A DNA stretch of 64,000 nucleotides, taken from positions 124,001-188,000 of the forward strand of contig NZ_JAYKGJ010000004.1 of NCBI RefSeq assembly GCF_036860695.1. The letters are read 5' to 3'. Made by a program: the position numbers and the translations under genes. This DNA is from Rosettibacter firmus. Lineage in GTDB: Bacteria; Bacteroidota; Ignavibacteria; Ignavibacteriales; Melioribacteraceae. Shown here piece after piece: positions 44,651-54,076 of the stretch. Each line of letters starts with the position of its first letter. Position 1 is the stretch's first letter. Below the pieces are notes generated by a model. It worked only from the letters and a program-made list of their open reading frames with translations. It did no database searches and was not told where the DNA came from.

Positions 44651-46075
44651 TTATATCAATGGTAATTGAATTATAAACTCAATCGAATTATTAGTTTTTT
44701 CTGCTTTTATTAAACCATCATGTAAATTAATAATTGATTTTGCTACATTTAAGCCCAAGCCCATACCTCTTATATTTTTTGTTGCTGATAAATCTGATCT
44801 AAAATTTCTATTGAAAATTTTTTCTGTATCAATTTCATTTACGTTTTCACATTCATTTTTTACAATTATCTCAAACATATCAGAATCTTTTTTCAGTGCG
44901 GTAACTATGATTGGATATCCATCCAAGCCATATTTAATTGCATTATCAATAATATTTGTGAGAGCTTGCTTGATTAAATCCGGATCAAAAAAAGCAGAGA
45001 AGTCACTTTCCAAATTGAGTACAAGCTTTTTGCTTTTTTCGTTGAGTAAGACATTAACATTTCTAATTAAAGACGATAAGAATTTTTCTAATTCAACTTT
45101 TTTCTTATTAAGTGTTATTAAATTATGCTCATTTTTGGATATGAAAAATAAATTATCAATAATTTTTATAAGTCTTAGAATCTCCTCATAATTACTTTTA
45201 AGAATTTCTACATATTCTCCCTGTGATTTATTAGACTTAAGAGCTATTTCAATTTCGCCTCTTAGAATAGTAAGTGGTGTTTTTAATTCATGTGCTACCG
45301 AGATTGAAAATTGATTCATATATTCAATAGAAGTTCTTATTCTTTGAATCATCTCATTCATCTTTTTTACCAATCTACCAAATTCATCATCATGTTCTTC
45401 ACCTGGAATAATTTCATTTAAGTTGTGAGCTGTTATTTCTTCTGTCTTTTTAATAATCTTATCAATTCGAGATAATGATCTTTGAGATATTATTGCACCT
45501 CCCAGCAATGAAATCACAAAAAACAGAGGAGCTAAAACAATATATATATCTGTTAAACTATTTATTATTTGTACAATGTGTTTTTTAGGATAAGCCACTA
45601 TAACTTTGTATTTGTTGTTCTGTAAAAGTACTCCTCTTATTTCATCGTCGGATAATTTATGATCTGTAAAATCAAATATCATATACGGTCGTTTTATTTC
45701 AGAGAAATTTAGATTGGTTTCTAATAGGTTGGCTGATTTATATATAACCTTAGGTCCCGAGGAAATTTGAATAAATGTATTTCTTTCATTAAAAATTACC
45801 ACATCATAAATTATATCCCATATCAAATCCTCTTCACTTGTATAATTACTATCTGGTTGAAATGTCTCTATATCAATATGCTTCGACTCAAGTATGTGCA
45901 TTATTGCTTTTGCTTGTGAGGTAAGTGAAGCATCTAACTTTTTCAGCGAGTTATTATAAAGATATTGATACACAATTAATCCAAAAAGGCATTCGAGAAT
46001 TAAAAAAACCACAGCATACCAAATAGATATCTTGAAGCGAGTAGATAAAATGTATGATTTAATTAAGTTCTTCAT
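44651..46075 (-). CDS. Sensor histidine kinase (HAMP-HisKA-HATPase)
   Basis: A 474-residue kinase. It has a first helix at about 15-38, a periplasmic domain of ~130 residues, a second helix at about 176-198, a HAMP linker, and the H box AHELKTPLTI with His262. The ATPase domain has the N box ALTNIIDNAIKYG and the G2 box GMGLGLNVAKSI. The start codon follows the regulator's stop without a gap (TAAATG), so the pair is translationally coupled. With the small Lys-rich gene it is divergent from the chaperone-usher-like operon, which it may control. The periplasmic domain has no recognised ligand motif. Confidence 0.93.
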   Translation of the reverse strand: MKNLIKSYILSTRFKISIWYAVVFLILECLFGLIVYQYLYNNSLKKLDASLTSQAKAIMHILESKHIDIETFQPDSNYTSEEDLIWDIIYDVVIFNERNTFIQISSGPKVIYKSANLLETNLNFSEIKRPYMIFDFTDHKLSDDEIRGVLLQNNKYKVIVAYPKKHIVQIINSLTDIYIVLAPLFFVISLLGGAIISQRSLSRIDKIIKKTEEITAHNLNEIIPGEEHDDEFGRLVKKMNEMIQRIRTSIEYMNQFSISVAHELKTPLTILRGEIEIALKSNKSQGEYVEILKSNYEEILRLIKIIDNLFFISKNEHNLITLNKKKVELEKFLSSLIRNVNVLLNEKSKKLVLNLESDFSAFFDPDLIKQALTNIIDNAIKYGLDGYPIIVTALKKDSDMFEIIVKNECENVNEIDTEKIFNRNFRSDLSATKNIRGMGLGLNVAKSIINLHDGLIKAEKTNNSIEFIIQLPLI

Positions 46076-46747
46076 TTATTCATCTTTAATCATGTAACCT
46101 GAACCACGAATTGTATGAATTAATTTCTTTTCATAATCTTGATCAATTTTAGCTCTTAGTTTATTTATGTATACATCAATTACATTTGTTTCGGTATCAA
46201 AATGATAATCATAAACATGCTCAATAAGTTTGGTGCGTGTAACAATTCTATTTTTATTTCTGAGAAGATATTCAAGAATGGAAAACTCTTTTTGTGTTAA
46301 ATATATTTCTTTATTACCTCTAAAAACAGTATGTGTAATTAAATCTAATTTTAAATCTGCTGCGGTAAGAATATTCGATTTTAATATTTCATTTCTTCTC
46401 AGGAGAGCCCTAACTCTAGCTGTGAGTTCTTCAAATGCGAAAGGTTTTGTTAAATAATCATCAGCACCTGCATCAAGTCCTTCAACTTTGTCGCTTACAG
46501 AATCTTTAACTGTCAATAATAAAATAGGAGTGTTTATTTTCCTCTTACGCAATTCTTTTGTTAATGTAAGCCCATCGATATACGGAATCATTATATCTAA
46601 AATTATTAAATCATATTCTTCAACTGTTGCAAGTTCAAGTCCTTTCTTTCCATCGTAAGCAATATCGACAGTAAAAAATTCTTCTTCCAAACCTTTTTTA
46701 ATGAAAGACGCAACTTTTTTTTCGTCTTCTATAATTAAAATTCTCAT
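46076..46747 (-). CDS. OmpR/PhoB-family response regulator
   Basis: A 223-residue regulator. The receiver domain has acid residues in IIEDEKK, phospho-acceptor Asp51 in LIILDIMIP, and Lys in YLTKPFAFEEL. A winged-helix DNA-binding domain (about 125-220) holds LTQKEFSILEYLL, TRTKLIEHVYDYHFDTETNVIDVYINKLRAKI and TIRGSGYMI. It sits directly before its kinase. The group most resembles CusR/CopR-type regulators of envelope functions, but the signal is unknown. Confidence 0.95.
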   Translation of the reverse strand: MRILIIEDEKKVASFIKKGLEEEFFTVDIAYDGKKGLELATVEEYDLIILDIMIPYIDGLTLTKELRKRKINTPILLLTVKDSVSDKVEGLDAGADDYLTKPFAFEELTARVRALLRRNEILKSNILTAADLKLDLITHTVFRGNKEIYLTQKEFSILEYLLRNKNRIVTRTKLIEHVYDYHFDTETNVIDVYINKLRAKIDQDYEKKLIHTIRGSGYMIKDE

Positions 46748-46816: not shown

Positions 46817-47125
46817 CTATTGTTTTTTGTCTTCTTTTGTTTTTTCTTCTTTTGGTTTTTCTTCTGACTTTTTATGCTTTTTGTGGTGTGCAACCTTCTC
46901 CTTCTTTTCAGCTTTTATTGTGTCACTTTTGGTTTCTTTCTTTTTTTCAGTAACGGCTTTTGGCTTTTCAGCTTTTTGTGTAGAAGGAGATGAGGTGGTT
47001 ACCTGTGATTCAACTTTTTTTGTTTGAGGTGTTGTAGTATTAGATTGAGATTGCGCAATTACATTATTAACTAAAAATATAACAGCAACTAATACTGCAA
47101 GAAATGAGAAAATACCACGTTTCAT
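46817..47125 (-). CDS. Small exported Lys/Glu-rich protein of unknown function
   Basis: 102 residues. A signal peptide (about 1-24, ending VIAQ) is followed by a Thr/Ser/Gln stretch and then a long, highly charged tail with repeated Lys, Glu and a His-His-Lys-Lys-His patch (about 79-83). It should be largely disordered or coiled outside the cytoplasm. No known family was recognised. The gene is upstream of the two-component pair on the same strand and divergent from the fibre operon. It might be a surface-charge modifier, a metal buffer (the His patch) or a regulated target of the kinase; none of these is shown. Confidence 0.7.
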   Translation of the reverse strand: MKRGIFSFLAVLVAVIFLVNNVIAQSQSNTTTPQTKKVESQVTTSSPSTQKAEKPKAVTEKKKETKSDTIKAEKKEKVAHHKKHKKSEEKPKEEKTKEDKKQ

Positions 47126-47420: not shown

Positions 47421-47903
47421 ATGAAGAAGCTAGCTAAACTTCTAGCAATTCTAGCGTTCTTTTTTACAGTTACAACAAACTATGCACAAAGTGCTAGTGT
47501 TCAGGTATCAGCAAACATTCTTGCAGCATTATCAATTCAACATATTTCTGGTAACCTGGACTTTGGAAATATCGTTGTAACTGGCAGTCCCCAAACTCCA
47601 ACCAAAACACCAGATAATGGAGCTCTCTTCGAAGTAACCGGTAATAATAACACTCCTGTAACAGTTACATTTAATAATGTTACACTTTCAAATGGTGGCT
47701 CTGGTAGTATGACATTTACTCCAGATGTTGAGCATACTACTTCAAGTTCCTACAGCGGTGCAACACCAATATCTAGTGGAAATCAGGTCACTTTAACAAG
47801 TGGTGGAAAGGCTTGGTTATGGGTAGGAGGTTCTTTAGCTGTTGCAGCAGATCAGGAGCCGGGCTCCTATTCTGGTACATTTACAATATCGGTTGCTTAT
47901 TAA
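47421..47903 (+). CDS. DUF4402-like fibre subunit 1 (probable major subunit)
   Basis: A 160-residue exported beta-sandwich protein. The signal peptide ends NYAQS. The DUF4402 pattern is seen in ILAALSIQ, LDFGNIVVTG, FEVTGNNNTPVTVTF and the C-terminal strand YSGTFTISVAY. The mature part is Thr/Ser/Gly-rich and has no cysteine, as in fibre subunits. A strong GAGGTG site and an immediate downstream terminator suggest it is made in larger amounts than the following genes, as expected for a major subunit. Paralogues follow at 48011 and 48524. Confidence 0.75.
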   Translation: MKKLAKLLAILAFFFTVTTNYAQSASVQVSANILAALSIQHISGNLDFGNIVVTGSPQTPTKTPDNGALFEVTGNNNTPVTVTFNNVTLSNGGSGSMTFTPDVEHTTSSSYSGATPISSGNQVTLTSGGKAWLWVGGSLAVAADQEPGSYSGTFTISVAY

Positions 47904-47922
47904 AGGGGAACTGCAATTATTA

Positions 47923-47955
47923 AAGACACTACCCAATTTTAAGGTAGTGTCTTTC
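47923..47955 (+). terminator. Hairpin terminator/attenuator inside the fibre operon
   Basis: A perfect 12-bp stem (AAAGACACTACC with GGTAGTGTCTTT) and 9-base loop follow subunit 1 by 20 bases, then a T-rich but interrupted tract. It should end most transcripts after the first subunit and allow limited read-through to the other assembly genes. Confidence 0.8.
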
Positions 47956-48010
47956 TTTATTATGTTCTTTATGTTGATATTTGCATCTTTATTATTTATA
48001 ATAAAGATGT

Positions 48011-48520
48011 ATGATAAAAAATTCATTAATAATAGTTTTATATTTAACTTCTCTTTGCTTTGCACAATCTGGAAGTGCAAGTGCAAGTGTAACAGCTAAT
48101 GTTATAACCCCTATTACTATTATTACAACAGGTAGTATAGATTTTGGAGACGTGATTGTTATGCCCAATCCTTATGTAGTTACAAAATCACCTGCTGAAG
48201 GAAGCAGGCACGAAATACAGGGTAATCCAAATAGTAGTGTAACAATTTCTTTTAGTTCTGTTACACTCGATAATTTTAGCTGGGTTGCTCAACATGGAGG
48301 AACAACCGGCACAATAACTTTTACTCCTGAAGTGAATCATACAGGAACAAATCCAAATTATACTAATCCTTCACCTGTGACAAGTGGAGGTGTTTATACA
48401 TTAACTGATGTAGGCGGTATAGGCAAACTTTATTTATGGACTGGTGGTTCTATAAGCATAAATGCCAACCAGCCTGTTGGTTATTATACCGGGACTTTCG
48501 TAATAAATGTTTCATACTAA
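48011..48520 (+). CDS. DUF4402-like fibre subunit 2
   Basis: A 169-residue exported protein with a signal peptide ending CFAQS. It is paralogous to the preceding gene: ASVTANVITPITIITTG, IDFGDVIVMPNP, HEIQGNPNSSVTISFSSVTLDNF, YLWTGGSISINANQ and YTGTFVINVSY align closely. It differs mainly in loops. Three bases separate its stop from the next start, so translation is coupled. It is probably a minor or tip-proximal subunit. Confidence 0.75.
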   Translation: MIKNSLIIVLYLTSLCFAQSGSASASVTANVITPITIITTGSIDFGDVIVMPNPYVVTKSPAEGSRHEIQGNPNSSVTISFSSVTLDNFSWVAQHGGTTGTITFTPEVNHTGTNPNYTNPSPVTSGGVYTLTDVGGIGKLYLWTGGSISINANQPVGYYTGTFVINVSY

Positions 48521-48523
48521 ATT

Positions 48524-48994
48524 ATGGCGAGGCAATTTTTACATATCAAGTATCTTTTTATTTTTTGCTTCCTAATTTATGAAACTACATTTGCACAATT
48601 AATTGTTAGTAAACTTAGGGATTTAGCATTCGGAGATGTATTCAAAGGTTATTCTTCTACTGTAAGTCATTTAGATGTTAATGCTGCAAAATTTTACTTC
48701 AATACCGGGAATTTACAGAATGTTAATATTCTTGTTCAATTTGTTTTACCTTCATATTTGACAAATAACATTGATAATCTTACTATAACTTTTAGCACTC
48801 AACAATCTGCATGGGCAAGAAGAGATTTAACAACTGGTAGAACTAATTTTGATCCTTACCAACCACTTACATTTAATAGACTAAAAAAGAATACTAATAT
48901 CTATATCTGGCTAGGTGCAACGATTACTATACCTGTATCAATATCAAGTGGTTTATATTCTGGTACAATAATTATGAATGTAGAAAGAATTTAA
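48524..48994 (+). CDS. DUF4402-like third subunit (divergent)
   Basis: A 156-residue exported protein with a signal peptide ending TFAQ. It keeps the domain's key marks, RDLAFGDVFKG near the mature N-terminus and YIWLGATITIPVSISSGLYSGTIIMNV at the end, but is otherwise divergent and lacks the leading Ala/Ser strand of the other two. A role as adaptor, base or terminator subunit is inferred from its place just before the chaperone gene. Confidence 0.68.
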   Translation: MARQFLHIKYLFIFCFLIYETTFAQLIVSKLRDLAFGDVFKGYSSTVSHLDVNAAKFYFNTGNLQNVNILVQFVLPSYLTNNIDNLTITFSTQQSAWARRDLTTGRTNFDPYQPLTFNRLKKNTNIYIWLGATITIPVSISSGLYSGTIIMNVERI

Positions 48995-49024
48995 ATTTAT
49001 CTTAAAAACAAAAATTTGATGGCT

Positions 49025-49852
49025 ATGAAAAAATATTATCTTATTTTAATTCTAATTCCCAATTTGCTTATTGCACAGATTATTATTTCACCTTATGTTG
49101 TTTATATGGACAACAAAAATCAATTTGCTAATATGATTGTTCAAAATGAATCTGATGAACCTTATGAAATTGGAGTATCATTTAAATTTGGATTCCCTGT
49201 TTCAGATTCTCTTGGAAATCTTTCAATGAAATATATTGATGAACCTGGAACTGAATATCCATCAATTCTTAACTACGTTCGAGCATTTCCAAAAAAATTT
49301 ATTTTGAAACCAAAGCAAAAACAATTAATTGGATTGACAATTAAACCTCCTCAAAATTTACAGGATGGAACTTACTGGGTGAGAATTGTTACTTCTTCAA
49401 CAAAACAGAGACCTCAACCTTTATTAGATACTAATAGTCAAAATCTGAATGCACAGATAAATTTTGTACTAAATCAAATTACTACAATGTTATATAGAAC
49501 TGGTAATGCTAATACTGGAATAGATATAGTAGATGCAAAATATTATAAAAATCAGGACAAACTTGATATCGTTACATCTTTAAAGAAATTAGGAAATTCA
49601 CCATTCTTTGGTGATGTCAAAGTTTCTATATATAATTCTGATAATCAACTTATTAAAACAGATACACAGCATACAAAAGTATTTTACGATTTATCAGTTA
49701 AACAAAGCTTCGATCTTGCTGAATTCAAAAAAGGAAATTATAAAGCAATTATTCAAGTAACACATAATGAAAAAGAAGATGTTCCTAATAGTGCTCCATT
49801 AAGTGTTATTAAGAATAATATTACAAAAACTTTAGATATAATTATAGATTAA
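49025..49852 (+). CDS. PapD-like periplasmic fibre chaperone
   Basis: 275 residues from the ATG at 49025; ATG at 49019 is also possible. The signal peptide ends LLIAQ. The first immunoglobulin-like domain has IIISPYVVYMDNKNQFANMIVQNESDEPYEI and KFILKPKQKQLIGLTIKPP, matching the G1-strand pattern of PapD-type chaperones. YWVRIVTSSTKQR is the usual F-strand region. A second beta domain follows (~160-265). It should bind and present the DUF4402 subunits to the usher encoded next. The conserved Arg and Lys of the chaperone cleft cannot be assigned with certainty. Confidence 0.75.
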   Translation: MKKYYLILILIPNLLIAQIIISPYVVYMDNKNQFANMIVQNESDEPYEIGVSFKFGFPVSDSLGNLSMKYIDEPGTEYPSILNYVRAFPKKFILKPKQKQLIGLTIKPPQNLQDGTYWVRIVTSSTKQRPQPLLDTNSQNLNAQINFVLNQITTMLYRTGNANTGIDIVDAKYYKNQDKLDIVTSLKKLGNSPFFGDVKVSIYNSDNQLIKTDTQHTKVFYDLSVKQSFDLAEFKKGNYKAIIQVTHNEKEDVPNSAPLSVIKNNITKTLDIIID

Positions 49853-49895
49853 GCTTTTGAAAGGAATAATAAAATAATTTTTTGTGAAACAATAA

Positions 49896-52571
49896 TTGAT
49901 AATTAAAGATGTCTTCATAATAAGTATTTTTTTATTACTTTTTGAACCAGCTTTAAGCTGGGCAAATAATTTTTCTATTTCAAATAATCCGCATCAAATA
50001 TTCAATGGATTAAAAGAAAATCGAGATACAATTAAAAACTTTTCTAAACCTGATTCTTCTTTAACTAAACCAGTCTTAAATACTTCTGATAATTATTTTG
50101 ATGAAAGAGAAGAAGCCTATTTCTATTTAATCTATAAAGATGTTTTGAGAAGTAGAATAATAACTTTATATACCAATAATTCATTTTATATTCCTTTATT
50201 AGAATTACTGAAATTATTAGAAATTAATTTTAATACTAATCTTAATGAAAAAATTATTACTGGCTTCTTCATAGAAGAAGATAGTACATATACTTTTAAT
50301 TTCACAAAATTAACTTATCAGGATAAACACAAATCATTCATAATTGCAAATGATGATTTCATCTTTACTCCACTTGAGATTTACATAAAACCAGAACTTT
50401 TAAAAAAAGCATTCAATATATCAACATCAATTAATCTAAACGACCTGAGTATAAATTTAATTACTGAAAAAAATCTCCCGATTTTAATGAGAGTAAAAAG
50501 AGAAACTCTTTATAAATATATTTCCAAAGAAACTATTGTCCCCGATTTTTATTATCCATTAACAAAGAAATATTTCTACGGACTTTTGTTTGATTATTTT
50601 ATATCATCGAATTTTACAAAGGGATTACCAGCATTTTATAATTATAATATTGGTGTTGGTGGAATTGTACTTGGTGGTACAACAGAAATTAACTTGAATG
50701 GTAGCTTAAATCAAAAGTACCATTCAATTAATGATTATACTTATAACTGGAGTTATGTTTTTAATAAAAAATCAATAACACAAATATCACTGGGTACAAA
50801 TGAGTATAATGGATTACAGCAATCAATATTCAATGGAATTAAAATTACCAATGAACCAGTTGAACCAAGAAAAAACTTTTATAATTATGTTATTTCAAAT
50901 TATTGTGGACCTAACTGGACTGTAGAATTATATGTTAATAATAAACTAACCGACGTTACAAAAGCCGATGCAAATGGATTCTTCAATTTCAACATTCCTT
51001 TACAATATGGCACTACATTTATTCATTTGAAATATTACAGTCCAGAAGGAAAATACATAACTACAAGAAGATTATTTCAGATACCTATAAGATTTATTCC
51101 ACCTGGTGAATTTAATTACACAATTAATATAGGAAGAATTACATATAACAATAATTTAGTTGGCAATATCTTAGGTACTTATGGAATAACAGAATCGATA
51201 ACAAATAGTATTGGTATTGAATTCTTAGAAAATAATTCACCAAAAAAATTCTTTTTATACAATGAATTCAATGCAAGGCTGGGTTCTTCTAACATCTTTA
51301 GTTTCACATTAGCACCAGATGCTTACTACAGAATTGGATTTAATACTTTGTTTTATTCACAAACTGCAATAAATATTCTTGCAACAAAATATTACAAATC
51401 TTCTTTTCATAATCCTTTTAATATTAATGAAGATTTTCAATTTGATTTTTTTTCGCCTTTAGACTTTAGAAACATTTCATTTGGTTTTGGAACAATTTTT
51501 AAATTGCAGAATTCATCAGACATTAAAAACAAATACTTTGGTCTAAACATTGGTGCAAAAACAGAGTACTTTAATCCTTCAATTTCATTTAAACAATATT
51601 TGACTGAATATAAAAATTATACAAGTAAGCAGTCATATCTGAGTTCAGGAATAATTATCCCTTTAAGATTTTTAGATAATATTTTGAGATCCACCAGTGC
51701 TAATTTGATTAACTTACAGGTTAATTATGATATTTCTCGCAATAAGTTTGTACAATATAACATAACTTATTCAACTGAGTTTTTTTCACAAAGCAGATTA
51801 GAAATCATATACAATAATGTTCTTAATTCTGGTAGTTATTTTCAATGTGGCCTGGTTATAAACTTCCCTTACATAAAAAATTGGTCAACAATTACAAACA
51901 ACAATATATTTACAAACATCTATGGTTCAATTGCTTATGATGCAGAAATCAATCGATATTCTTTTTACAACCGATCGCAGGTAGGGAAATCTTCAATTAT
52001 ATGTAGATTTTTCTTAGATAAAAATGGAAATAATAAATATGACAAAGATGAAACATTGATTAACGATGCAGAAGCATTTTTAGAAACTCCCTGTTCAATG
52101 GAAAAAGCAGGTGATGGAATTATTAAACTAAGAGAATTAAATCCATATACAACATATATTATAAGAGTTAATGAAAGCATTAAGAATGGATTTTTAATTC
52201 CAGCTTTTAAAACAATTGCTATTCAAACAGAACCCAATACTTCAAAAATAATTGATATACCATTTTACGAAGCCACAGAAATTTATGGTAGTGTTACTTT
52301 GTTATTGAATGATAATTCAAGAAAATCTCTAAATGGAATCAAAATTGTCTTTGAAAATTTAAATGATGGCTACAGGTTTTCTACAACTACATTTTCTGAT
52401 GGAACTTTTTACTTATCAGGAATAAAACCATCGAATTACAAAATATATATCGATCCTGAACAATTAAAAGCATTAAAATGTGTTTCATTTCCCGAAAACA
52501 TTATTTACAATCCCGGTAACTATGATAATACTCTGGAAAATATTAACTTTGAATTAAAAATTATCGAATGA
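49896..52571 (+). CDS. Usher-like outer-membrane fibre assembly protein
   Basis: An 891-residue exported protein (signal peptide ends SWAN). The order fits an archaic-type usher. An N-terminal domain (~70-190) holds an ITLYTNNSFYIPLLELLKLL segment. A plug region (~340-395) holds WTVELYVNNKLTDV and GFFNFNIPLQYGTTFIHLKYY. A long run of amphipathic strands should form the barrel. The C-terminus adds a Ca-binding-type DKNGNNKYDKDE segment (~705-718) and a carboxypeptidase-regulatory-like beta domain (~790-880). The start appears to be TTG at 49896, just after an in-frame stop, with a poor ribosome site. It probably secretes and assembles the DUF4402 subunits. Confidence 0.72.
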   Translation: MIIKDVFIISIFLLLFEPALSWANNFSISNNPHQIFNGLKENRDTIKNFSKPDSSLTKPVLNTSDNYFDEREEAYFYLIYKDVLRSRIITLYTNNSFYIPLLELLKLLEINFNTNLNEKIITGFFIEEDSTYTFNFTKLTYQDKHKSFIIANDDFIFTPLEIYIKPELLKKAFNISTSINLNDLSINLITEKNLPILMRVKRETLYKYISKETIVPDFYYPLTKKYFYGLLFDYFISSNFTKGLPAFYNYNIGVGGIVLGGTTEINLNGSLNQKYHSINDYTYNWSYVFNKKSITQISLGTNEYNGLQQSIFNGIKITNEPVEPRKNFYNYVISNYCGPNWTVELYVNNKLTDVTKADANGFFNFNIPLQYGTTFIHLKYYSPEGKYITTRRLFQIPIRFIPPGEFNYTINIGRITYNNNLVGNILGTYGITESITNSIGIEFLENNSPKKFFLYNEFNARLGSSNIFSFTLAPDAYYRIGFNTLFYSQTAINILATKYYKSSFHNPFNINEDFQFDFFSPLDFRNISFGFGTIFKLQNSSDIKNKYFGLNIGAKTEYFNPSISFKQYLTEYKNYTSKQSYLSSGIIIPLRFLDNILRSTSANLINLQVNYDISRNKFVQYNITYSTEFFSQSRLEIIYNNVLNSGSYFQCGLVINFPYIKNWSTITNNNIFTNIYGSIAYDAEINRYSFYNRSQVGKSSIICRFFLDKNGNNKYDKDETLINDAEAFLETPCSMEKAGDGIIKLRELNPYTTYIIRVNESIKNGFLIPAFKTIAIQTEPNTSKIIDIPFYEATEIYGSVTLLLNDNSRKSLNGIKIVFENLNDGYRFSTTTFSDGTFYLSGIKPSNYKIYIDPEQLKALKCVSFPENIIYNPGNYDNTLENINFELKIIE

Positions 52572-52577
52572 AAATTC

Positions 52578-53627
52578 ATGGAAGAATTACTAAAACTAAA
52601 ATACTACGACAATACTATCAAAGAATATTTAACAGCAGTATTAATATTAATTCTCACTTTTTTAATTATTCATTTTATAAAAAAGATTTTATTAAAGAGA
52701 ATTAAAATAAAAATTGAATCATCTGGTTTTAATAAATACAACTACATTGAAAAAAGTGTAAATCGACTTTTAATACCTGCTATATATTTAGGAGCAATTT
52801 ATTTAGTGCTTGAATATCTGAGTTTTGGTAAACAAGCCGATAGAATTATCAGCATAGTTTCACTAATTATACTAACTTATTTTATTATACGATTCACTAT
52901 TGCATTAATTAAATTTCTTTTAGATAGATATTTTCAAAAACAACGAGGAGTGGAGGAGTTACAAAGAATTCAACCACTTTATGGAATTATAAATCTAATT
53001 GTATGGATAATTGGTTTAATATTTTTACTGGATAATCTTGGTTTTCATGTTACCACAATAGTTACTGGTTTGGGAATAACAGGAATAGCAGTTGCACTTG
53101 CTGCTCAGGCATTGCTTGGTGATTTGTTTAGTTACTTTGTAATTTTTTTTGATAAACCATTTGAAGTGGGAGATTTCATTTCTTTTGATGGAAAGATGGG
53201 AAACATAGAAAAAATTGGTATTAAGACTACAAAAATTAAATCAATAAATGGCGAACAATTAATTGTTGCCAATTCAAAACTAACCAGTGCAATTGTTCAT
53301 AATTTCAAAAGATTAGAAAAAAGAAGAGTAGTGTTGAAGTTAGGAGTTACCTATCAAACTCCATTCGAAAAATTAAAAAGTATCCCTGAAATGATTAAAG
53401 AAATAATTATTAAAAATGATTTAGTACAATTCGATAGAGGACATTTTGCTGGCTATGGTGATTTTAGTCTTAATTTTGAGTTTGTTTATTTCATTCTTTC
53501 TCCAGATTATTTGACTTATATGGATATACAACAAAAAATTAATTATGATATTTTTGAGAAATTCGAAAAAGAAAAAATTGAGTTTGCTTATCCAACTCAA
53601 ACAATTTTTATAAACAAATCCGAATGA
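52578..53627 (+). CDS. MscS-family mechanosensitive channel
   Basis: A 349-residue inner-membrane protein with about four helices (around 18-35, 60-80, 90-115, 135-150) and the pore helix GLGITGIAVALAAQALLGDLFSYF. It is followed by the MscS beta domain (FEVGDFISFDGKMGNIEKIGIKTTKI) and the cytoplasmic vestibule. It releases solutes on osmotic downshift. It lies 6 bases after the usher-like gene, so it is likely on the same transcript, although a functional link is doubtful. Confidence 0.92.
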   Translation: MEELLKLKYYDNTIKEYLTAVLILILTFLIIHFIKKILLKRIKIKIESSGFNKYNYIEKSVNRLLIPAIYLGAIYLVLEYLSFGKQADRIISIVSLIILTYFIIRFTIALIKFLLDRYFQKQRGVEELQRIQPLYGIINLIVWIIGLIFLLDNLGFHVTTIVTGLGITGIAVALAAQALLGDLFSYFVIFFDKPFEVGDFISFDGKMGNIEKIGIKTTKIKSINGEQLIVANSKLTSAIVHNFKRLEKRRVVLKLGVTYQTPFEKLKSIPEMIKEIIIKNDLVQFDRGHFAGYGDFSLNFEFVYFILSPDYLTYMDIQQKINYDIFEKFEKEKIEFAYPTQTIFINKSE

Positions 53628-53644
53628 TATTTTAGAGTATATAT

Positions 53645-54076
53645 ATGACTGTCTTTTTCTCTAAAGCTTGTGAACTTGGAATTCAAGCAGTGTTATATTT
53701 ATCTATTAAAAAACAAAATGTTATTGTCAGTGCAGATGAAATTTCACAAGAACTAAAAGTACCAAAAGAGTTTGTTTCTAAAATATTACAGAAGTTGACA
53801 TATCATGGAATAACAGGTTCTAAAAAAGGGAAAGGCGGTGGATTTTATCTGGCTAAAAATCCCGGTAATATTCGTTTAATAGATATTATAGAAGCAATAG
53901 ATGGTTTGGATATTTTTAAATCTTGTGTACTTGGATTTCCCGGATGCTCAAATGAAAATCCTTGTCCTGTACATGACAAATGGGGCAAACTCCGAGAAGA
54001 AGCTTACAAAATGTTCAGTGAAGAAACACTCTCCCAGCTCAAAGAAAAAACAATTCAAAAAATATTAAACTTATAA
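53645..54076 (+). CDS. Rrf2-family Fe-S regulator (IscR/NsrR-like)
   Basis: A 143-residue winged-helix repressor. KACELGIQAVLYLS opens the domain, and EISQELKVPKEFVSKILQKL is the recognition helix, followed by the GGFYLAK wing. Three cysteines (Cys94, Cys101, Cys107) in SCVLGFPGC and NPCPVH match the cluster-binding loop of Rrf2 proteins such as NsrR and IscR. It lies convergent to and at the end of the nitrogen-oxide operon, so a role as NO- or redox-responsive regulator of that operon is plausible. No binding site was identified. Confidence 0.85.
   Translation: MTVFFSKACELGIQAVLYLSIKKQNVIVSADEISQELKVPKEFVSKILQKLTYHGITGSKKGKGGGFYLAKNPGNIRLIDIIEAIDGLDIFKSCVLGFPGCSNENPCPVHDKWGKLREEAYKMFSEETLSQLKEKTIQKILNL

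Follow-up and report, generated by a model that had tools for sequence, protein, structure and literature searches.

The window analysed here is a stretch of 64,000 nucleotides from Rosettibacter firmus (Bacteroidota; contig NZ_JAYKGJ010000004.1, positions 124,001 to 188,000), whose assembled genome comprises 3.24 Mb in 9 contigs. Five consecutive genes on its plus strand (47421-52571) encode three small subunits, a putative periplasmic chaperone and a large putative outer-membrane usher (Table 1). An arrangement of three subunits, chaperone and usher had been proposed in an earlier note on this DNA, and all five open reading frames (ORFs) were found where it had placed them. Both profile-profile comparison and structure prediction indicated that the locus is very probably a divergent chaperone-usher pilus operon with pilins of the DUF4402 family. 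Chaperone-usher pili rank with the most thoroughly studied fibres of bacteria. The reading draws on gene content and order, profile homology of all three kinds of protein, the predicted folds of the usher and of subunit 1, and a pattern in which one subunit of the operon is short.

Table 1. Features of the chaperone-usher locus in the window (aa, amino acids; AF2, AlphaFold2; CTD, C-terminal domain)
Feature	Position	Strand	Description
Subunit 1 (DUF4402)	47421..47903	+	160 aa; pilin with N-terminal extension; PF14352 E 3.9e-14
Subunit 1 signal peptide		+	22 aa, mature from 47487; assigned by eye
Subunit 1 proposed donor strand (N-terminal extension)	47487..47528	+	about 14 residues (QSASVQVSANILAA); putative function
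Subunit 2 (DUF4402)	48011..48520	+	169 aa; N-terminal extension; mature from 48065 by eye; PF14352 E 6.7e-6
Subunit 2 proposed donor strand	48065..48109	+	from alignment and distances; putative function
Subunit 3 (DUF4402-like), proposed tip	48524..48994	+	156 aa; without N-terminal extension; PF14352 E 0.024, below cut-off
PapD-like two-domain periplasmic chaperone	49025..49852	+	275 aa; alternative TTG start at 49016 gives 278 aa
Outer-membrane usher	49896..52571	+	891 aa; hhalign, AF2, Foldseek
Usher N-terminal periplasmic domain	50109..50465	+	residues 72-190; from model secondary structure; precedes barrel as in FimD
Usher barrel	50574..51941	+	residues 227-682; 24 strands by count of the model
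Usher plug domain	50874..51083	+	residues 327-396; between barrel strands 6 and 7; contains VELYVNNKL
Usher CTD1-like domain	51978..52226	+	residues 695-777; paired by hhalign with C-terminal part of FimD
Usher CTD2-position domain	52242..52565	+	residues 783-890; CarboxypepD_reg / SdrD-B like

The chaperone-usher pair was conserved in a congener (78% and 60% identity), whose contig stops inside the chaperone gene with the subunits beyond view, and the subunit-chaperone-usher order was found again in distant Bacteroidota, so that the five-gene arrangement is not a product of chance. The window genome holds one usher copy and two DUF4402 matches, both at this locus. A scan of GTDB genomes yielded 168 confirmed stretches, including those in Melioribacteraceae, Bacteroidales, Chitinophaga, Flavobacterium and Pedobacter, and 80 of these loci were kept. 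The alignments were chosen subsets of 35 chaperones, 38 ushers, 53 rows for the usher model and 49 subunit rows. The ushers, chaperones and pilins of E. coli K-12 and eight archaic operons from environmental plasmids (seven for the chaperone) served as yardsticks.

The identification of the large protein as an usher, for which a profile search could have pointed to another family, was borne out. Comparison of the usher family by hhalign with six E. coli ushers gave 96.8% (E 2.3e-10, 510 columns) and with eight archaic ushers 98.1% (E 1.1e-13, 518 columns); the reversed usher profiles scored 0.3% and 0.1%, respectively, and EcpC of the alternative (alpha) pili scored 13.2%. A single FimD sequence reached only 1.1% against the family, so the value of 96.8% requires profiles on both sides. 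Because single-sequence FimD also scores low, the reversed profiles are the fair control, while LptD, BamA and FhuA (0.1-0.3%) are weak ones, being single sequences too. The Pfam Usher model (PF00577) was found in one of the 38 members (E 0.013, at E <= 0.1), and the usher-family profile retrieved no usher from the PDB sequences, its matches being SdrD, NOMO2, a SPOR protein and others. For the window usher, only sub-threshold Pfam matches were obtained, to CarboxypepD_reg (E 9.4e-6, residues 806-852) and similar families. The 38 ushers matched 60 NCBIfam families, and the 25 families listed were mostly domains, RlpA, FtsN or OmpA for example, with no usher among them. The kinship is seen only in profile-profile comparison and predicted folds, not in single-sequence searches or profile searches of the PDB.

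The AF2 model of the usher, made from 53 sequences, had a mean predicted local distance difference test score (pLDDT) of 86.2 and a predicted template modelling score (pTM) of 0.67. In this model an N-terminal domain is followed by a 24-strand barrel, with a plug after strand 6, and by two C-terminal domains. FimD likewise has 24 strands and a plug after strand 6. The segment VELYVNNKL, which the earlier note had assigned to a plug, occupies residues 343-351, inside the predicted plug. The first 17 PDB hits in a Foldseek search with the model were all FimD or PapC, the best being FimD (E 2.8e-28), and the first other barrel was a porin (E 6.0e-6). Structural alignment by VIA with FimD (9fw9_D) matched model residues 221-886 to FimD 132-832 (607 residues, Z 20.7, root-mean-square deviation (rmsd) 8.2), and the pore alone aligned with the FimD pore 3ohn_A over 349 residues (Z 16.6, rmsd 3.5); the N-terminal domain was barely covered by the structural alignments. 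Model and profiles together describe a protein built like the ushers of this pathway, with a plugged 24-strand barrel and periplasmic domains at both its N and its C terminus.

The earlier note had taken the C-terminal regulatory-like domain to be an extra one. By itself, this domain (783-890) resembled CnaB/SdrD modules (VIA, Z 10.8-10.9 over 93-95 residues). The FimD alignments extended to model residue 886-888, these ranges giving only the first and last aligned residue. Because it occupies the CTD2 place in the usher, the CarboxypepD_reg-like domain is probably a diverged CTD2 and not an addition. Added domains were observed in some usher relatives (for example at loci L011, L014 and L039): SPOR in 15 of 38, OmpA in one, LysM in one and TPR in two, and RlpA-like NCBIfam matches were present in up to nine. 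The ushers of Melioribacteraceae relatives carry long N-terminal extensions. It would be out of the ordinary for an usher to be linked to peptidoglycan.

The PapD-like character of the fourth gene product, also claimed earlier, was upheld by family profiles. The chaperone family scored 97.3% against the seven archaic chaperones and 90.5% (E 1.4e-6) against the E. coli FimC-type chaperones, which identifies a PapD-like two-domain chaperone. PapD_N was matched by 16 of the 35 members (best 1.6e-5, at E <= 0.1), the window protein not being among them, and the family profile found no chaperone among PDB sequences, giving one chance match.

The residues that anchor the subunit carboxylate were examined in the chaperone alignment. 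The classical anchor, which we take to be Arg8 and Lys112 in PapD numbering, was not kept in the columns read off the FimC alignment: column 25 is arginine in 17/35 members and valine in the window chaperone, and column 154 is lysine in 0/35. In archaic and alternative chaperones, according to PMC4654587, the carboxylate is held by a domain-1 arginine of strand F and a domain-2 tyrosine. By hhalign, the archaic arginine (Arg89 of CsuC) corresponds to column 118, which is arginine in 17 of the 35 members, and the other 18 have an arginine two positions later, at column 120; the tyrosine (Tyr196 of CsuC) corresponds to column 220, which is tyrosine in 33/35, whereas the window protein has phenylalanine there and tyrosine at column 221. 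With candidate arginine and tyrosine columns present and the classical pair not kept, the alignment points towards a possibly archaic-like grip on the subunit carboxylate.

The three small proteins had been described as DUF4402-type paralogs with shared motifs. Subunits 1 and 2 exceeded the Pfam cut-off for DUF4402 (PF14352) and subunit 3 fell below it; profiles of short and long subunits, as defined below, scored 99.3% against each other, and 46 of the 49 aligned subunits matched DUF4402 at E <= 0.1. In subunits 1 to 3 the motifs read LDFGNI, IDFGDV and LAFGDV near the start and YSGTF, YTGTF and YSGTI near the end, the third copy differing slightly from the proposed motif. Spore coat U (PF05229) was not among the 12 families matched by the 49 aligned subunits. 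Compared by hhalign with archaic spore coat U pilins, the extension-bearing subunits scored 94.7% (reversed, 0.2%) and a mixed subunit set 94.3%. The model of subunit 1 (49 sequences, pLDDT 96.8) retrieved chaperone-usher pilins and adhesins (Caf1, Csu, CFA/I, Fim, Pap) as its first 22 Foldseek hits, and it aligned with CsuA/B in the pilus 7zl4_B over 121 residues (VIA, Z 8.4, 21% identity, rmsd 8.5), a Z near 8 being one that a common arrangement can produce. For the predicted subunit fold, the uniform list of pilin and adhesin matches, not any single score, is the convincing part.

The number of residues between mature start and FG motif varies among the subunits, being 13 in subunit 3 against 27 and 28 in the other two; the difference corresponds to a stretch such as QSASVQVSANIL or QSGSASASVTANV. 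Exactly one short subunit (13-21 residues), with all others long (26-39), was found in 21 of 21 scored operons, that is, in all but one of the 22 loci that had a chaperone and at least two subunit genes, the exception being the unscorable Polaromonas locus. The scoring rule was crude (an [ASGC]Q cleavage site and an FG-like motif), leaving 24 of 146 subunit rows unscorable, and the split between 13-21 and 26 or more was chosen after the distances were seen; four rows from chaperone loci with one captured subunit measured 23-25. The long profile comprised 63 rows, seven of which (distance 46, from chaperone-less loci) were probably mis-scored. Several short subunits (19-21) start with a proline-rich stretch. 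The short gene precedes the chaperone gene in 6/21 loci, all on the window's side of the family, and lies between chaperone and usher in 14/21, with L071 ordered otherwise. Because donor-strand exchange needs an extension in every subunit but the tip one, the short subunit is best read as a putative tip subunit. The subunits therefore appear as incomplete immunoglobulin (Ig)-fold pilins with an N-terminal stretch that may act as donor strand, and DUF4402, a family of unknown function, is likely a family of fibre subunits.

A mechanism like that of known chaperone-usher pili can be proposed from these parts. The subunits would cross into the periplasm by the Sec route, where the G1 strand of the PapD-like chaperone would complete each unfinished Ig-like subunit and its cleft would hold the C-terminal carboxylate, probably in the archaic way. 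The usher would open its plug, take chaperone-subunit complexes at its N-terminal domain and move them on to the pair of C-terminal domains. Each incoming subunit would use its N-terminal extension to displace the chaperone strand in the preceding one. Subunit 3, without an extension, could then only be the first (tip) subunit, and the shaft of the fibre, which might serve in adhesion or biofilm formation, would consist of subunits 1 and 2.

Several observations weigh against a divergent chaperone-usher pilus. The window usher and the window chaperone had no pilus match (usher, PapD or other) in Pfam or NCBIfam at E 1, and neither had a PDB sequence match by phmmer. The full-length usher superposes with an rmsd of about 8 Å, which domain movement could explain. 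In the chaperone family, fn3_5 was matched by 15/35 members (best 5.8e-5) and other Ig-like families did about as well as PapD_N; the family scored only 19.8% against EcpB/EcpE (its proteobacterial members gave 74.5%) and 10.6% against a wrong partner, the E. coli pilins. The DUF4402 subunits gave no hhalign signal with E. coli classical pilins (<=0.3%) or EcpA (<=0.7%), and the short-subunit profile alone scored 7.2% against archaic pilins. The structural matches of subunit 1 were modest: the best Foldseek E was 3.0e-3, none reaching 0.001, many of the first 22 hits were Caf1 chains, and the first 13 VIA rows, all pilins or adhesins, had Z 7.7 to 8.4 at most. Residues 1-15 of the subunit 1 model, the proposed donor strand, were given no strand assignment; the extension is therefore predicted to be free or loosely packed in the monomer. 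Nothing in the data shows a fibre; its formation is inferred. Finally, 54 of 82 usher loci had no chaperone within 6 kb upstream, eight of these having less than 2.5 kb of upstream sequence.

The usher family was sought in 296 sampled Bacteroidota genomes, and the Pfam Usher and DUF4402 models in 292. The usher was present in six of 58 close relatives, the window genome included, and in 72/296 genomes at E <= 0.001 with a six-row profile. After removal of weak partial matches (E above about 1e-9; genomes G195, G185, G253, G095, G174, G241, G024, G058 and G059), 63 genomes remained, of which 44 matched with at least 289 bits; the linkage comparison also omitted some additional partial matches in retained genomes. 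DUF4402 was found in 47/292 genomes at E <= 0.001 (43 over the cut-off), and all 47, which are among the 63, had an usher-family match. As many as 89 of the 108 DUF4402 hits, in 46 of the 47 genomes, lay within 10 kb of an usher match. The co-occurrence had P = 6e-41, a value that overstates independence since the genomes are related. PF00577 exceeded the Pfam cut-off in none of the 292 genomes, the window's included. At E <= 0.001 it gave just three matches, all sub-threshold (1.9e-5 to 7.4e-4) and all inside members of this usher family, which is an unplanned and independent pointer to its identity.

Two Polaromonas plasmids also carry the DUF4402-chaperone-usher operon, as do plasmids of Sphingopyxis, Novosphingobium and Pseudoalteromonas xiamenensis; for the small gene upstream in Pseudoalteromonas sp. 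Bsw20308, the annotation says hypothetical only. Of these six annotated plasmid records, four name the chaperone as such and two have it as hypothetical; the usher appears four times as carboxypeptidase(-like) regulatory, once as SdrD B-like, once as hypothetical and never as an usher. Three of the six proteobacterial plasmid copies (L009, L120-L124) were typed as conjugative and IS6 transposases lie near the operon in both Polaromonas plasmids, suggesting past movement of the operon by mobile DNA.

Within 6 kb upstream of the usher in 82 loci (the 80 kept, the window and Polaromonas), a subunit was found in 77, a chaperone in 28 and both in 27, and the usher can thus occur apart from the chaperone. 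In a second operon type (L025:3-7304, L043, L044, L065, L083 and other Chitinophaga and Bacteroidales loci), the usher is accompanied by a long protein and a single DUF4402-like subunit, and the 6 kb upstream yielded no chaperone; L071 has one further on, so a chaperone elsewhere in the genome is possible. An ORF of more than 1000 codons lay just upstream in 33 of the 54 chaperone-less loci, and all five of the long upstream proteins tested carry a type IX secretion sorting domain at their end.

Other genes adjoin the operon in the window. Upstream on the opposite strand are genes for an OmpR-type response regulator (46076-46747) and a histidine kinase (44651-46075), a possible regulator of the operon. 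By blastp at E 1e-10, the kinase had no relative beside the usher in other loci, and the response regulator had two weak matches only, in L070 and L085 (about 30% over 110 residues). Between this pair and the operon, a minus-strand gene (46817-47125) encodes a K-, E-, S- and T-rich protein of 102 aa whose beginning is signal-like and for which nothing exceeded any Pfam cut-off. An MscS-type channel gene (52578-54076) follows the usher stop after a 6-base gap, and an Rrf2 regulator gene comes next. The congener L010 likewise has the MscS gene beside the usher (78% identity), whereas the remaining loci gave no match to it at E 1e-10.

The best-surviving alternative, which we nevertheless hold to be unlikely, is that the locus belongs to the archaic (sigma) chaperone-usher systems and that its proteins have done no more than drift. 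The archaic system was the closest by profile of those tried for all three parts (reversed profiles and wrong partners of this comparison gave 0.1 to 3.9%), and the chaperone appears to share the arginine and tyrosine columns of the non-classical anchor. Archaic and classical ushers, however, matched each other with E 2.9e-50, far better than either matched this family (1.1e-13 at best, with archaic ushers). In a quick maximum-likelihood tree of 58 ushers, a branch with support 99 set off the 14 archaic and classical rows, and this family stood apart with 43 rows (support 100, stem 1.2), although long branches and uneven composition leave its deep order unsure. The family split into Bacteroidota (37 rows, support 98) and proteobacterial (6 rows, support 92) groups, none of its ushers fell inside the sigma clade (8 rows, support 99), and EcpC stood alone on a long branch. 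The pilins are DUF4402 and not spore coat U, and no gene for a two-domain tip adhesin follows the usher, which also argues against drift.

It is also conceivable, but improbable, that the chaperone-usher parts export single DUF4402 proteins or a short complex, such as a surface cap or coat, and not a long fibre. The many related loci with one subunit, an usher and a long upstream gene, but no chaperone found nearby, would suit such export, as would the type IX sorting domains of the long proteins tested. The window's own type, in contrast, has two extension-bearing subunits and one without, the set expected of a linear polymer and the one seen in every scored operon. That the large protein is some other barrel (a porin or a TonB-type or LptD-type transporter) with periplasmic Ig domains beside unrelated small secreted proteins is strongly disfavoured and close to negligible: the missing direct Pfam Usher match and the CarboxypepD_reg-like best match would fit it, but FimD and PapC precede the first porin by many orders of magnitude in Foldseek, the strand count and plug position are those of FimD, two usher groups match by profile, and LptD, BamA and FhuA, weak single-sequence controls as they are, gave 0.3% or less.

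A divergent chaperone-usher pilus operon would be a complete chaperone-usher kit in a group where the standard Pfam Usher model finds none. Since the family is widespread and that model overlooks it, the finding matters beyond this one locus. DUF4402, of which no mention was found in the open-access literature, gains a testable role, and no such chaperone-usher system in Bacteroidota was found described among the papers listed there, as judged by titles and abstract openings. An outlying branch could help to root the origin of the chaperone-usher pathway, and cultured Chitinophaga and Flavobacterium carriers, such as Chitinophaga filiformis DSM 527 and Flavobacterium omnivorum, put experiments within reach.

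The likeness to classical pili drawn in the earlier note stands for the gene kit and the usher fold; the closest relatives by profile are archaic. Among the systems tried, archaic (sigma) pili such as Csu of Acinetobacter baumannii came closest in usher, extension-bearing subunit and chaperone. Like spore coat U pilins, the DUF4402 subunits have LDFG near their start and finish with a G-Y-x-x-T strand, and the anchor arginine and tyrosine columns of sigma chaperones may be shared as well. Unlike in sigma systems, the ushers here form a clade of their own, the pilin family is a different one (akin by profile-profile comparison), and all subunit genes precede the usher. The excerpted part of PMC4654587 places classical and alternative pili in beta- and gamma-proteobacteria and archaic pili in Proteobacteria, Cyanobacteria and Deinococcus-Thermus, a list without the Bacteroidota of the present system; the excerpt of PMC9452303 gives archaic pili 'a wide range of phyla'.

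Classical pili (FimD/FimC, PapC/PapD) share the usher fold, domain order and plug position, with profile scores of 96.8% for the usher and 90.5% for the chaperone; they differ in that their pilins give no sequence signal with DUF4402 and in the two anchor basic residues, which are not both present here. For the alternative (alpha, EcpA-E) pili, Arg89 of EcpB lies in a strand motif similar to that of the anchor arginine here, but profile scores were low (13.2% for the usher, 19.8% for the chaperone) in a comparison with a single alpha system. Type V pili (FimA/Mfa1 of Porphyromonas) are built of lipoprotein subunits cut by a protease and are not known to use an usher. They occur in the same phylum and have beta-sandwich subunits, whereas the present locus has an usher and a chaperone, and none of its subunits shows a canonical lipobox by eye.

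In conclusion, by usher clade, pilin family and classical anchor, the locus appears from its sequences to lie outside both the classical and the archaic classes, and it would work like them, being closest to the archaic one. The most cautious filing is as a new, deep branch of the chaperone-usher pathway. On balance, we lean towards a separate, unrecognised class beside the classical, archaic and alternative ones, found in Bacteroidota and some Proteobacteria, with DUF4402 pilins and an usher whose second C-terminal domain is CnaB/SdrD-B-like and which in some lineages carries extra peptidoglycan-binding or fn3 domains; in a sister branch, giant type IX-secreted proteins would be coupled to the usher and a single subunit, and a chaperone might be lacking.

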